Positions 2,025-9,175 of a stretch of 64,000 bases of DNA are shown one piece after another. Within the stretch, counting starts at the first letter, position 1, and the number at the start of each line of letters is the position of its first letter. The notes under the pieces are model-generated. The model had not been told where the DNA came from and did no database searches. It was given only the letters and a program-made list of their open reading frames with translations. Origin of the DNA: Edaphobacter lichenicola (GTDB lineage Bacteria > Acidobacteriota > Terriglobia > Terriglobales > Acidobacteriaceae); NCBI RefSeq assembly GCF_014201315.1, contig NZ_JACHDY010000005.1:310001-374000 (forward strand), given 5' to 3'. A program made the position numbers and the translations under genes.

Positions 2025-2366
2025 CTATTCGACGCCGTGGCGCCGCACGCTAAGCCACACCGTCAGCGCGAGGAACTGCGCGAGAAGAACAGACTCCGCC
2101 AGTCCAAAGCTAGCGTGCCTGCCGTTGTACAGCGTCACAGCGATGAGGATGACCAGCGTAAGAATCATGCCAAGAAACACCGCGTTCCGGCCGTAGTGAG
2201 TGGCAGTGAGCGAAACAGGGCGTTGGGCAGGAAGTCTGCCAGCGACGCGAGCGGCAAAATCGGCGGGAACTTCCACCCTGGGCGCAGTCTCCAGAGCATG
2301 GAGAACGCGTCGGTCCAGTTCGTCGTAGGCCCTTACCAGCTGCGAGTTCATCAATTCGTCTGACAT
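2025..2366 (-). CDS. Small membrane protein, candidate anti-sigma partner
   Basis: A 113-residue protein with a soluble N-terminal part of about 55 residues, one clear membrane segment (about residues 62-82) and a second hydrophobic stretch (about 88-106). It starts 16 bases inside the 3' end of the ECF sigma gene, so the two are probably translationally coupled. Position, size and topology suggest it holds the sigma factor at the membrane. It has no HxxxCxxC zinc anti-sigma motif, so this role rests on context only. No other function is recognisable. Confidence 0.72.
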   Translation of the reverse strand: MSDELMNSQLVRAYDELDRRVLHALETAPRVEVPADFAARVAGRLPAQRPVSLTATHYGRNAVFLGMILTLVILIAVTLYNGRHASFGLAESVLLAQFLALTVWLSVRRHGVE

Positions 2367-2908
2367 GCCGTTCTCCTCTCACTGGTTTGATTCTGCTGAA
2401 TCGCTTCACGAAGCTTCTTGCGTCCGCGGTGAAGATGGGTCCGCACCGTGCCGATCGGCATTCCCAGCGCGTAAGAGATCTGCTCGTAGCTTCGCTCTTC
2501 CTGATGATAAAGAATCAGGATCGTTCGCTCAATATGGCTGAGCCGCTGCAACTGCTCCTCGACCACCTGCTGGAATTCGCGTTCCTCGATCTGCTGTTCC
2601 GCGTTCCTGTCGGGGTGCGCCAAACGCTCTTCCCACGCCGAAGTCTCGTCCGAGAGCGAGACGTGGGAGCGGTCATCGCGGCGGCGGCGCTTCCACTCGT
2701 CCTGCGCAACATTCACCGCGATCCGGTAAAGATAAGTAGTAATCAGCGCTTCGCCGCGAAAGCTGGGCAACGCTCGATAGAGGCGCAGAAAGACATCCTG
2801 GGCAAGATCATCGAGGTGCTCGCGGCTACCCGTCAGACGCAGCAGCGTGCGAAAGACCATCGCCTGATGGTCGCGTACCAGCTGCTCGAAGGTGAGATCG
2901 ACGTCCAA
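2351..2908 (-). CDS. ECF-type RNA polymerase sigma factor
   Basis: A 185-residue sigma-70 factor with only regions 2 and 4. Region 2 lies at about residues 8-75 (LVRDHQAMVFRTLLRL, then DLAQDVFLRLYRAL). Region 4 lies at about 115-170 (LSHIERTILILYHQEERSYE and the helix-turn-helix GMPIGTVRTHLHRGRKKL). The start is TTG at 2908; region 2 begins almost at once, so a much later start is unlikely. No Shine-Dalgarno sequence precedes it. A TGAAAC-N17-GTCTAA promoter ends 7 bases before the start codon, which suggests autoregulation and perhaps a leaderless message. The downstream membrane gene overlaps it. Confidence 0.93.
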   Translation of the reverse strand: MDVDLTFEQLVRDHQAMVFRTLLRLTGSREHLDDLAQDVFLRLYRALPSFRGEALITTYLYRIAVNVAQDEWKRRRRDDRSHVSLSDETSAWEERLAHPDRNAEQQIEEREFQQVVEEQLQRLSHIERTILILYHQEERSYEQISYALGMPIGTVRTHLHRGRKKLREAIQQNQTSERRTACQTN

Positions 2909-2914
2909 GCGAGG

Positions 2915-2943
2915 TTAGACAATAGAGTGCTCCGAAAGTTTCA
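2915..2943 (-). promoter_or_regulatory. ECF promoter of the sigma gene (TGAAAC-N17-GTCTAA)
   Basis: On the minus strand TGAAAC (2943-2938) and GTCTAA (2920-2915) are separated by 17 bases. An AAC-type -35 and a GTC-type -10 are the usual ECF promoter elements. The same two hexamers at the same spacing occur on the opposite strand, and identity extends through TGAAACTTTCGGAG. The predicted transcript start falls at or within a base or two of the TTG start codon. Confidence 0.7.
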
Positions 2944-2953
2944 TTCCGGCGAG

Positions 2954-2982
2954 TGAAACTTTCGGAGTGCCTCCCGGTCTAA
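2954..2982 (+). promoter_or_regulatory. Divergent ECF promoter of the DUF6249 gene
   Basis: TGAAAC (2954-2959) and GTCTAA (2977-2982) with a 17-base spacer, matching the promoter on the other strand. The shared -35 regions make a 14-bp perfect inverted repeat (2930-2943 and 2954-2967). The 3008 gene follows with a good ribosome site (AGAGGAGG), so the sigma factor probably drives both genes. Confidence 0.7.
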
Positions 2983-3007
2983 CGCGGGCAGAAAGAGGAG
3001 GTAGTCT

Positions 3008-3466
3008 ATGGATTTTCTATCAAGTCCGTTTATTGTGCCGGTAGCCGGTTGCGCCGTCGGTGCCATCGCCATCGTCTCGGGCATCTGGTTCGAGGCCCAG
3101 CAACGCCGCAACAAGGCAGAGCAGCGTATGGCGATGATTGCGCGTGGTGTCCCCATCGCCGAGATCGAGAAGCTTTTGGGCTCCGGCGACGAGGAGAAGC
3201 GCGTCAGAGACCCTCTGCGCAGCCTCGGCAACGCACGCCGTGCAGGAATTATCCTGGTTTCGGTTGGGTTGGGATTGATCCTGTTCTTTATCACGCTCAG
3301 CGTCATTGTGCACGAGCGGGATGTCCTGGCAGGGTCGGCCGCCGGCATCATTCCACTGGCTATCGGGATAGGCTTTTTCATCGACTACAACCTGCAGAAG
3401 CGCGAACTATCGCGCTTCGGGTTGGAGATCGGCGCCGAGTCCGCAGGGGCTGGATCGGAACGATAG
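3008..3466 (+). CDS. DUF6249-type membrane protein, probable ECF target
   Basis: A 152-residue protein with an N-terminal membrane segment (about residues 8-28), a charged cytoplasmic stretch (about 30-75) and two further membrane segments (about 77-100 and 108-125). The layout and the phrase AIARGVPIAEIEKLL resemble DUF6249 proteins, whose function is unknown. The ATG follows AGAGGAGG at good spacing. It is transcribed divergently from the ECF sigma gene and carries the same promoter elements, so it probably belongs to that regulon, possibly a membrane or envelope response (inference). Confidence 0.8.
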   Translation: MDFLSSPFIVPVAGCAVGAIAIVSGIWFEAQQRRNKAEQRMAMIARGVPIAEIEKLLGSGDEEKRVRDPLRSLGNARRAGIILVSVGLGLILFFITLSVIVHERDVLAGSAAGIIPLAIGIGFFIDYNLQKRELSRFGLEIGAESAGAGSER

Positions 3467-7572: not shown

Positions 7573-8283
7573 ATGAATCGCACCTTTGCTCTTGTTACCG
7601 CCCTCGCTGCGGGAATGACATCCGCTGCCGGAGTGGCCCAGATCGCTGGCACACCGGCTGCACCCGCTGCAGCTCCCACCCAGACCGCACCTGCTCCGGC
7701 CCCAGCACCTGCCCCGGTCGCGCCACACGCGGTCCCCGCGAAGATTGCAACCATCGAGTTCGAGCAGGTCGCCGCCGCAACCAACGAAGGACAGCGCGCC
7801 CTGCAGGCCCTGCAGAAGAAGTACGAGCCCAAAGGGGCAGAGCTGCAGGCCAAGGCACAGGAGATCGATACCCTCAAGAAGCAGCTGCAGAGCGCCCCGG
7901 CAACCCTTACCGAGTCCGAACGCGCCTCGAAGCTGCGTACCATCGACACCAAGGAAAAACAGCTCCAGCGTGATGGCGAAGATGCACAGCAGGCCGTCGC
8001 CGGCGAGCAGCAGCAGGTCATCGGTGTGGTTGCGAAAAAGCTCGCGCCAGTCGTGAAGAAATACGTCGAGGACAACGGCTACACTATGCTGCTCGATATC
8101 ACCGGCCAGCAGGGCGGCTCGATGAGCGTGCTCTGGACCAGCGAGGGCACCGATATCTCCCGCGCAGTTCTGGATGCGTACAACGCGTCTTCCGGCGTCG
8201 CACCGCCAACTCCATCCGCGCCTTCTCCCGCCGCTCACCCGCACGCCTCGGCCGCTCAGAAGCCTGCGCTGCCGAAGCAGTAA
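7573..8283 (+). CDS. OmpH/Skp-family periplasmic chaperone-like protein (copy 1)
   Basis: A 236-residue protein with a signal peptide (MNRTFALVTALAAGMTSAAG), an Ala/Pro-rich linker to about residue 55, and an OmpH/Skp domain at about 56-205. The domain has an opening beta strand (IATIEFEQVAAATNEGQRAL), a long charged coiled coil and a closing GYTMLLDITGQ strand. An Ala/Pro/His tail follows. Skp-like proteins guard unfolded outer membrane proteins in the periplasm. It is a tandem paralogue of the next gene; even the upstream GAAGGAGTACCACA and first codons are shared. The ribosome site to ATG spacing (13) is long in both. Confidence 0.9.
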   Translation: MNRTFALVTALAAGMTSAAGVAQIAGTPAAPAAAPTQTAPAPAPAPAPVAPHAVPAKIATIEFEQVAAATNEGQRALQALQKKYEPKGAELQAKAQEIDTLKKQLQSAPATLTESERASKLRTIDTKEKQLQRDGEDAQQAVAGEQQQVIGVVAKKLAPVVKKYVEDNGYTMLLDITGQQGGSMSVLWTSEGTDISRAVLDAYNASSGVAPPTPSAPSPAAHPHASAAQKPALPKQ

Positions 8284-8494: not shown

Positions 8495-9175
8495 ATGAAT
8501 CGCACCCTCGTTCTTATCTCCGCGCTAGGCGCCGGATTGATGACCACCGCCGGAGTCTCCCAGACTGCTGCAGCTCCTGCTCCTGCCACCGCTGCACCTG
8601 CGGCCGTTGAGCCCCAGGCCATCCCCGCAAAGATCGCGCTGGTCGCCTTTGAGCAGGCGGTCTTCGCCACCAACGAAGGCCAGCGTGCCGTCCAGCAGAT
8701 TCAGGACAAGTATAAGCCCAAGAAGGATCAGATCGACACCCTCTCCAAGGAGGTCGACTCGCTCAAGGCTCAGCTGCAGAGTGCTCCCGCAACTCTCTCC
8801 GATGAAGAGCGCGCTACTCGCCTGCGCAACATCGACACCAAAGAGAAGGAGCTGAACCGCAACGCCGAGGATGCCCAGACCGCCTACAACGCGGATCTGC
8901 AGGAAGCCTACGGCAAGGTGGCCGCCAAGGTCTCGGTCACGCTGAAGGACTACGTCAGCAAGAATGGCTACACCTTGCTCCTCGATGTCAGCAGCCAGCA
9001 GAGCAACGTGATGTGGGCCAACCAGAGCATCGACGTGACCCAGGCTGTTGTGACCGCGTACAACACCTCTTCCGGTGTCGCTGCGCCGGCCCCGTCCGGA
9101 CCGTCTTCCCCGGCCCCCACGACAGCTCGTCCGCGTCCAACGACAACGCCGAAGCCCGCCGCACCGAAGCAGTAA
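8495..9175 (+). CDS. OmpH/Skp-family periplasmic chaperone-like protein (copy 2)
   Basis: A 226-residue paralogue of the preceding gene with the same plan: signal peptide MNRTLVLISALGAG, Pro/Ala linker, coiled-coil OmpH domain (PAKIALVAFEQAVFATNEGQ through GYTLLLDVSSQQ), and a Pro/Thr-rich C-terminal tail. The shared ribosome site block and shared ends of the coil indicate local gene duplication followed by divergence of linker and tail. The proteins may form mixed or alternative trimers (inference). A 210-base gap separates the copies and a strong terminator follows. Confidence 0.9.
   Translation: MNRTLVLISALGAGLMTTAGVSQTAAAPAPATAAPAAVEPQAIPAKIALVAFEQAVFATNEGQRAVQQIQDKYKPKKDQIDTLSKEVDSLKAQLQSAPATLSDEERATRLRNIDTKEKELNRNAEDAQTAYNADLQEAYGKVAAKVSVTLKDYVSKNGYTLLLDVSSQQSNVMWANQSIDVTQAVVTAYNTSSGVAAPAPSGPSSPAPTTARPRPTTTPKPAAPKQ

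Follow-up and report, generated by a model that had tools for sequence, protein, structure and literature searches.

A conserved mirror pair of ECF-type promoters at near-constant spacing between an ECF sigma factor gene and a DUF6249 gene in Edaphobacter lichenicola

The window (the whole stretch of DNA analysed, 64 kb of the genome of the soil bacterium E. lichenicola) carries the gene of an ECF (stress-type) sigma factor, a small membrane protein gene that follows it on the same strand and, divergently oriented, the gene of a DUF6249 membrane protein (Table 1). The sigma protein was found to match the models Sigma70_r2 (E 1.7e-17) and Sigma70_r4_2 (E 4.6e-14) in Pfam and to exceed the cut-off of the sigma70-ECF model TIGR02937 (E 4.5e-32). 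Only models of regions 2 and 4 were matched in Pfam, the sigma2 plus sigma4 composition by which ECF (group IV) factors are defined. Its nearest named relatives are of the genera Edaphobacter and Granulicella (Acidobacteriaceae), with a sigma protein identity of 92-96%. Transcripts named sigW, possibly but not necessarily those of a counterpart of the present sigma gene, are described to rise on high sugar in Granulicella sp. WH15, in the accessible part of that report (PMC7074687).

Table 1. Features of the sigma-DUF6249 locus (positions in the window)
Feature	Position	Strand	Remarks
Small membrane protein gene, probable anti-sigma	2025-2366	-	Overlaps end of sigma gene by 16 nt
ECF sigma factor gene	2351-2908	-	TTG start, 185 aa
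Estimated sigma transcript start	2908	-	First base of TTG (leaderless); inferred
-10 of sigma promoter	2915-2920	-	GTCTAA; GTC at N17 in 46/46 mirror-bearing relatives (found by protein search)
-35 of sigma promoter	2938-2943	-	TGAAAC, extended TGAAACTTt
Gap separating the two -35s	2944-2953	.	10 bp; length kept, sequence not
-35 of DUF6249 promoter	2954-2959	+	TGAAAC
-10 of DUF6249 promoter	2977-2982	+	GTCTAA; GTC at N17 in 44/46 relatives
Estimated DUF6249 transcript start	2989	+	Inferred from same -10 distance
Shine-Dalgarno of DUF6249 gene	2996-3001	+	AGGAGG; start codon ATG
DUF6249 membrane protein gene	3008-3466	+	152 aa; PF19762 E 2.3e-11

Membership of the DUF6249 family is clear, with a score of 44 bits against a curated cut-off of 33. 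The structural model of this protein was found to be all-helical (mean pLDDT 83.5), with long helices at residues 9-45, 60-101 and 114-136, and a fold search with the model returned no significant match (best E 0.15, to ExbB). A literature search for DUF6249 found no function, the sole paper with the term concerning a plant kinase family. For the small protein, no match was found in Pfam and no anti-sigma domain was recognised. Its AlphaFold2 model (mean pLDDT 76.6, pTM 0.31) consists of helices at residues 2-27, 37-44, 58-81 and 88-111, the membrane helices having been judged by eye from hydrophobicity. In class II anti-sigma factors (CnrY-like) a short helical segment embraces the sigma factor; set beside this class, the small protein is modelled with N-terminal helices (2-27, 37-44) that precede two hydrophobic helices. 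From its position and conservation, it is probably an anti-sigma factor.

The original prediction placed TGAAAC-N17-GTCTAA on both strands between the sigma and DUF6249 genes, and exactly this was found, with TGAAACTTTCGGAGCACTCTATTGTCTAA at 2915-2943 on the minus strand and TGAAACTTTCGGAGTGCCTCCCGGTCTAA at 2954-2982 on the plus strand. The pair were the sole matches to TGAAACN{16,18}GTCTAA within the 64 kb, with none in 100 dinucleotide shuffles, and accounted for two of the three matches to the pattern in the whole genome (one match in the reversed control). For ECF (group IV) promoters, a -35 with AAC and a -10 with CGT are given in summary by PMC8103513 (accessible text); the AAC is present, and the CGT is present in part, the base before GTC being variable. 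Identity of the two sites had also been claimed for eight bases beyond the -35. This holds within the window, where the identical run counted from the T of TGAAAC amounts to 14 bases; among relatives the first two or three T are kept and the CGGAG is not. The CGGAG was ruled out as part of the motif because of this lack of conservation. A hairpin or terminator reading of the gap was likewise discarded, as both estimated starts are downstream of the gap, whose sequence is unconserved.

Conservation was investigated by a protein search with the sigma factor, in which the best 80 of 139 loci were taken, 48 of them (L034-L081) forming a close set. Most of the 48 bear the title Acidobacteriaceae or Acidobacteria, the title of L058 being Rhodanobacteraceae and that of L078 "bacterium". 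Rather than keeping the genes without the motifs, relatives were found to keep both: the strict GTTTCA-gap-TGAAAC mirror is present in 46 of these 48 loci, drawn from the best 80 of 139, although the 46 are not all distinct, L055 and L056 being two copies in one genome. These two copies, in Terriglobus roseus DSM 18391, lie approximately 460 kb apart and have identical 212 upstream bases. One of the two exceptions, L058, has a single base changed in one -35. The other, L077, has neither a mirror nor a DUF6249 gene beside the sigma gene, and retains TGAAAC-N17-GTC on the sigma side. Upstream of position 3001 in L077, foreign-looking sequence adjoins the sigma -35 and is suspected to be the end of an insertion sequence. 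On the DUF6249 side, the GTC of L066 and L079 lies one base further than N17. Both elements thus travel with the sigma gene, which supports the prediction of two ECF-type promoters and of autoregulation by the adjacent sigma factor, whose gene is directly preceded by a conserved promoter of what would be its own type.

In a pattern scan of 398 genomes of the family, 52 were found to have a match, against about seven in the reversed control; 30 of these loci were opened, the remainder being known as matches only, and all 30 contain the sigma, DUF6249 and small protein genes. The gap-23 or gap-24 matches of G256, G277 and G207 were set aside by sequence alone. Outside the family, one phylum-wide scan returned only G603, which led into a second class of Acidobacteriota, and G576 (L148, with no sigma gene), and another only G603 and G570. 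Plasmids were also searched, with no near match. The mirror matches L148-L150 (gaps of 16, 23 and 24) were excluded since no sigma, DUF6249 or small protein gene was found there. In L149 and L150, at about 1501-1560, the palindrome GAAATTTC stands between GTTTCA and TGAAAC, and similar elements occur in five genomes of one genus; neither of the two loci opened has a sigma or DUF6249 gene.

With regard to gene content, an HMM scan of 96 loci identified 93 with the sigma factor, 88 with DUF6249 and 89 with the small membrane protein encoded downstream. Among the 48 close relatives, a divergent DUF6249 homologue was present in 44, the others being three loci at contig ends (L039, L054, L058) and L077, and a homologue of the small protein in 46, with both misses (L080, L081) on cut contigs. 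The conserved module is therefore the sigma gene, the small downstream membrane protein gene and the divergent DUF6249 gene. The neighbouring M48 protease and TldD genes were considered as further parts and rejected, as no more than 6 and 9 of the 48 loci, respectively, have them in their flanks. Thirty more distant loci (L082-L084, L087-L113) were also inspected, one of which (L103) is titled Acidobacteria and the others different groups. In seven of them (L082, L083, L089, L095, L096, L101, L102) the sigma gene is immediately preceded, on its own strand, by a DUF6249 gene scoring above the Pfam cut-off; the titles of these records are Polyangiaceae, Deltaproteobacteria, Alphaproteobacteria, Caulobacteraceae, Brevundimonas, Idiomarina and Bacteroidales. 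The link between sigma factor and DUF6249 is thus independent of the mirror promoters, and the predicted tie of this membrane protein to the sigma factor gains support from the close relatives and the co-directional pairs alike. DUF6249 paralogues with no sigma gene nearby were found at 20 loci of the family (L014-L033), one of which, L030, has a sigma-like ORF.

The motif had also been put forward as a usable consensus for a genome-wide regulon, and here the outcome was different: scans of the genome itself and of 60 congeners revealed no regulon past this locus. In the E. lichenicola genome, TGAAACTT-N{14,16}-GTC gave four matches, namely the pair and two with different spacing (control six), while TGAAACTT-N15-GTCTAA with up to two mismatches gave 21, namely the pair, none at one mismatch and 19 at two (control 28). 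The 60 congeneric genomes hold 65 exact sites, in 36 genomes (control one), of which 61 (27 pairs and seven lone sites) lie at the locus or its remnant. Assignment relied on the 39-bp offset, on identity with retrieved loci or, in the case of G284, on reading the sequence. The G284 site belongs to the locus proper, where a single -35 base of the mirror is altered. No common target gene was found for the four sites off the locus (G340, G310, G366, G257); one stands 97 nt before a gene whose product we take to resemble the N-terminus of ClpB, and the other three are before nothing consistent. By the strict consensus, the regulon is this locus. Since ECF promoters often differ from consensus at two or more positions, weaker sites could still extend the regulon. 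The description of the regulon as an envelope regulon found no support for an envelope role in the present results. As a general caution, the regulon marked by a good-looking sigma consensus may consist of a single locus.

The position of the sigma start codon was then considered. The transcript starts in Table 1, 81 bp apart, were estimated by placing +1 at a distance of 12 nt downstream from the G in GTC. An in-frame TAA stop lies within the sigma -10 (TTG start region 2906-2920, minus strand); past the TTG, no in-frame start occurs until an ATG 48 nt downstream, within region 2. An in-frame start codon 12-15 nt past the G of GTC was identified in 35 of 46 distinct loci, the window included (TTG at 12 nt in 24 and at 13 nt in five, GTG at 14 nt in five, ATG at 15 nt in one), with a longer distance in L039 and ten others (L067-L069, L071-L076, L080). 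Because of this close and recurrent position, the sigma mRNA probably has little or no leader. Translation of a leaderless mRNA from TTG would be uncommon. In L039 (196-227) the -10 region is tandemly duplicated upstream of the sigma start, with the second GTCTAAC 12 nt before the TTG.

The length of the gap between the two -35s was found to be more constant than its sequence. It is 10 bp in 43 of the 46 mirrors of the close loci, 9 in two and 11 in one. Over 63 distinct mirrors (of 89), 56 have a gap of 10, three of 11 and two of 9, with one each of 20 and 23; clustering at 80% identity leaves 41 clusters, with gaps of 10 (35), 11 (two), 9 (two), 20 (one) and 23 (one). Information content across the 35 gap-10 representatives is about 0-0.4 bits per position in the gap, 1.9 in the -35s and 1.6-1.9 in the GTCs, the -35 cores being fixed by the selection of mirrors, as is one -10 in loci from the pattern scan. 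The TT next to the -35, which was never selected for, is present on the sigma side of all 35 cluster representatives, and at 1.0 and 0.89 on the DUF6249 side. As yardsticks, the distance from GTC to the start codon ranges from 29 to 164 nt for DUF6249 (43 loci, some starts chosen by our own rule); for the sigma gene it begins at 12 nt and exceeds 100 nt.

To allow for other spacings, gaps of 0-30 were scanned in 240 genomes of the family, giving 37 genomes with a match (control two). After reading, G093 (an 18-bp gap within a gene) and G098 (lacking a sigma gene) were set aside, and G105 (30 bp) was set aside by its sequence pattern as a simple repeat. In G098, a congener with no DUF6249 match, GTTTCA and TGAAAC arms lie 10 bp apart before a small ORF (L222, 1544-1565), with no sigma gene within the stretch. 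The remaining 34 genomes, counted by promoter pattern and not by sigma or DUF6249 gene content, have gaps of 10 (28), 11 (four), 9 (one) and 22 (one).

A wider range of gaps was found in the second class, where a protein search with the DUF6249 of G603 matched 21 of 193 genomes. Seventeen of these loci have divergent sigma and DUF6249 genes with both -35s legible, at gaps of 23, 1, 10, 24, 10, 9, 22, 36, 10, 12, 20, 22, 20, 1, 1, 1 and 12 (L193 and L194 being near copies). The sigma-side element reads CGAAAC in three of the 17. At the remaining four loci (L195, L198, L199, L200) sigma, DUF6249 or both were not recognised. A pattern open to any gap from -1 to 29 matched 13 of the 193 genomes, with none in the control, at gaps of 22, 20, 10, 10, 23, 9, 10, 24, 12, 1, 12, 1 and 1. 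The Rayleigh test on these 13 gaps gave R 0.757 at a period of 10.9 bp, with p 0.0016 against uniform gaps after scanning periods of 9-13, a value that assumes independent genomes although the loci share ancestry. On 13, 12 and 17 gaps the p values were 0.0016, 0.0038 and 0.0006, the set of 17 including four loci found by protein search only. The gaps out of phase are that of 36 (L187), by approximately 3 bp, and those of 20, by approximately 2 bp. On a sigma tree of 43 proteins (all 17 second-class loci and 26 hand-picked from the family of the window) the four gap classes need nine changes, the minimum possible being three, and so the classes of 1, 10 and 21 bp seem to have been interchanged several times; the changes forced by starred branches only are fewer, at 4, 3 and 2 in the 10-, 21- and 1-bp classes, respectively.

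That spacing and not sequence is kept among relatives, and that the spacing changes elsewhere by approximately one DNA turn at a time, suggests that the two promoters form one device. At a probability of roughly 60%, the locus can be read as a self-contained ECF sigma circuit with one composite bidirectional promoter, on which two holoenzymes would sit on a fixed relative face of the DNA. The sigma factor encoded at 2351-2908 would direct RNA polymerase to two mirror promoters of the form TGAAACTT-N15-GTCTnA. Leftward transcription would yield the sigma factor and the overlapping small membrane protein, a putative anti-sigma factor keeping sigma inactive, and rightward transcription the DUF6249 membrane protein. 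A signal that frees the sigma factor would mainly raise sigma, its brake and DUF6249, because few or no other genes carry the motif. The -35s would be separated by some 1 bp with zero, one or two helical turns added, one turn (10 bp) being the case in the family of the window. The fixed face may be required by the two holoenzymes themselves or by upstream contacts (sigma region 4, alpha C-terminal domains), and the holoenzymes might help or alternate with each other, tying together the output of the two operons. Three features go beyond the original prediction, namely the rigid and apparently helix-phased distance of the promoters, a gene that probably codes for an anti-sigma factor, and the coincidence of the sigma start codon with the expected start of the transcript.

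One competitor is that two independent back-to-back ECF promoters are both read by the sigma factor with no interaction of polymerases, the gap being a product of descent and of scarce spare DNA. Ordinary sigma binding explains all of the elements, and the same gap could have been inherited by most loci of the family. Independent promoters do not as readily account for a gap whose sequence has been scrambled while its length was kept, when the distances from GTC to the start codons vary widely, nor for a gap that in the second class was changed repeatedly and yet to 1, 9-12 or 20-24, and once to 36. On this balance we regard independence as unlikely, if still the strongest competitor.

For the composite promoter, the estimated starts place the centre of the opposite -35 at about -48.5 with a gap of 10, -39.5 with a gap of 1 and -60.5 with a gap of 22. 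Activators contact polymerase from similar positions, a likeness suggesting that either holoenzyme may influence its neighbour, whether by helping or by excluding it. RNA polymerase with sigma E covers DNA to -60, as cited in PMC5263251 (accessible text), and therefore the upstream contacts of two holoenzymes would overlap at a gap of 10. The room left by gaps of 1, 10 and 22 differs so much that a single contact could hardly explain them all. A more specific version of the composite promoter is put forward tentatively, at somewhat less than even odds: a mirror ECF pair selected for whole turns, in which one promoter would serve as a class I/II-like activator or gate for the other, with DUF6249 as a dedicated partner of this sigma lineage across phyla. 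In that case, the ratio of sigma and brake to DUF6249 would be set by DNA geometry and not by a regulator protein.

The arrangement was compared with known systems. In the autoregulated operons of RpoE and SigW, as here, the sigma factor has sigma2 and sigma4 only, the -35 contains AAC and the -10 GTC, a promoter of the factor's own type lies upstream and a small membrane protein gene lies downstream. The -35 site of SigW is ATTGAAACCTTT, which shares the TGAAAC, and the RpoE site is GGAACTT (PMC8103513, accessible text). Unlike in these operons, the putative autoregulatory promoter here is half of a mirror pair whose helical distance is fixed, hardly any other gene is marked by the strict motif, and the sigma start codon coincides with the expected start of the transcript. 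The hrpL-hrpJ region of Pseudomonas syringae resembles the present locus in having an ECF sigma gene divergent from its own target, and there the bound holoenzyme interferes with the neighbouring promoter (PMC5263251). It differs in that hrpL is sigma-54 dependent, so that one of the two promoters is of the ECF type, and the accessible text of that paper mentions neither mirror -35s nor phasing. The interference is explained there by occlusion, with no fixed spacing mentioned in the same text, a point in favour of independent promoters. Bidirectional promoters of E. coli are alike in that one symmetrical element gives transcripts in both directions, with competition of polymerases possible (PMC12825309, accessible text). 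They have a shared -10 and starts most often 18 bp apart, with 10 and 23 also common, whereas the present locus has two separate -10s, -35s that face each other and estimated starts 81 bp apart.

An operator reading was also weighed, in which GTTTCA-gap-TGAAAC would be bound by a dimeric regulator overlapping both -35s, the promoters being secondary. The perfect dyad symmetry, the 14-base identical arms in this genome and the gap-10 palindrome of G098, which has no adjoining sigma or DUF6249 genes, are in its favour. An operator would have no need of the GTC at N17 on both sides, and no conserved regulator gene was seen among the neighbours tested (sigma, DUF6249, small protein, M48, TldD). 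Dimeric regulators usually do not tolerate gaps of 1, 10 and 22, all of which occur here, and the operator reading is considered improbable. That an ECF sigma factor of the cell other than the adjacent one reads the motif is highly improbable: the similar -35s of SigW and RpoE (PMC8103513, accessible text) imply that the motif is not exclusive in principle, but in 60 genomes hardly any of its sites lie away from this locus, and L077, from which DUF6249 is gone, still carries the sigma-side element.

Within the accessible text of open-licence papers (among them PMC8103513, PMC7406223, PMC12825309, PMC12340889, PMC7074687, PMC3174227 and PMC5263251), neither a phased ECF promoter pair nor this locus was found, and a search of open-licence papers for divergent back-to-back ECF promoters found none. 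If the phasing holds, the composite promoter would amount to a natural, repeated experiment on the mutual influence of back-to-back RNA polymerases, at a locus where no other regulator was seen and where phasing can be tested by changes of a few bases. The near-whole-turn fixed distance is the part that merits a bench test. DUF6249, a membrane family of no known function, gains a likely partner in an ECF sigma factor, in two gene arrangements and in records titled Acidobacteria, Proteobacteria and Bacteroidales. Elsewhere in the window, two tandem OmpH/Skp-like genes were identified on the plus strand at 7573-8283 and 8495-9175 (PF03938, E 4e-25 and 6.8e-23).
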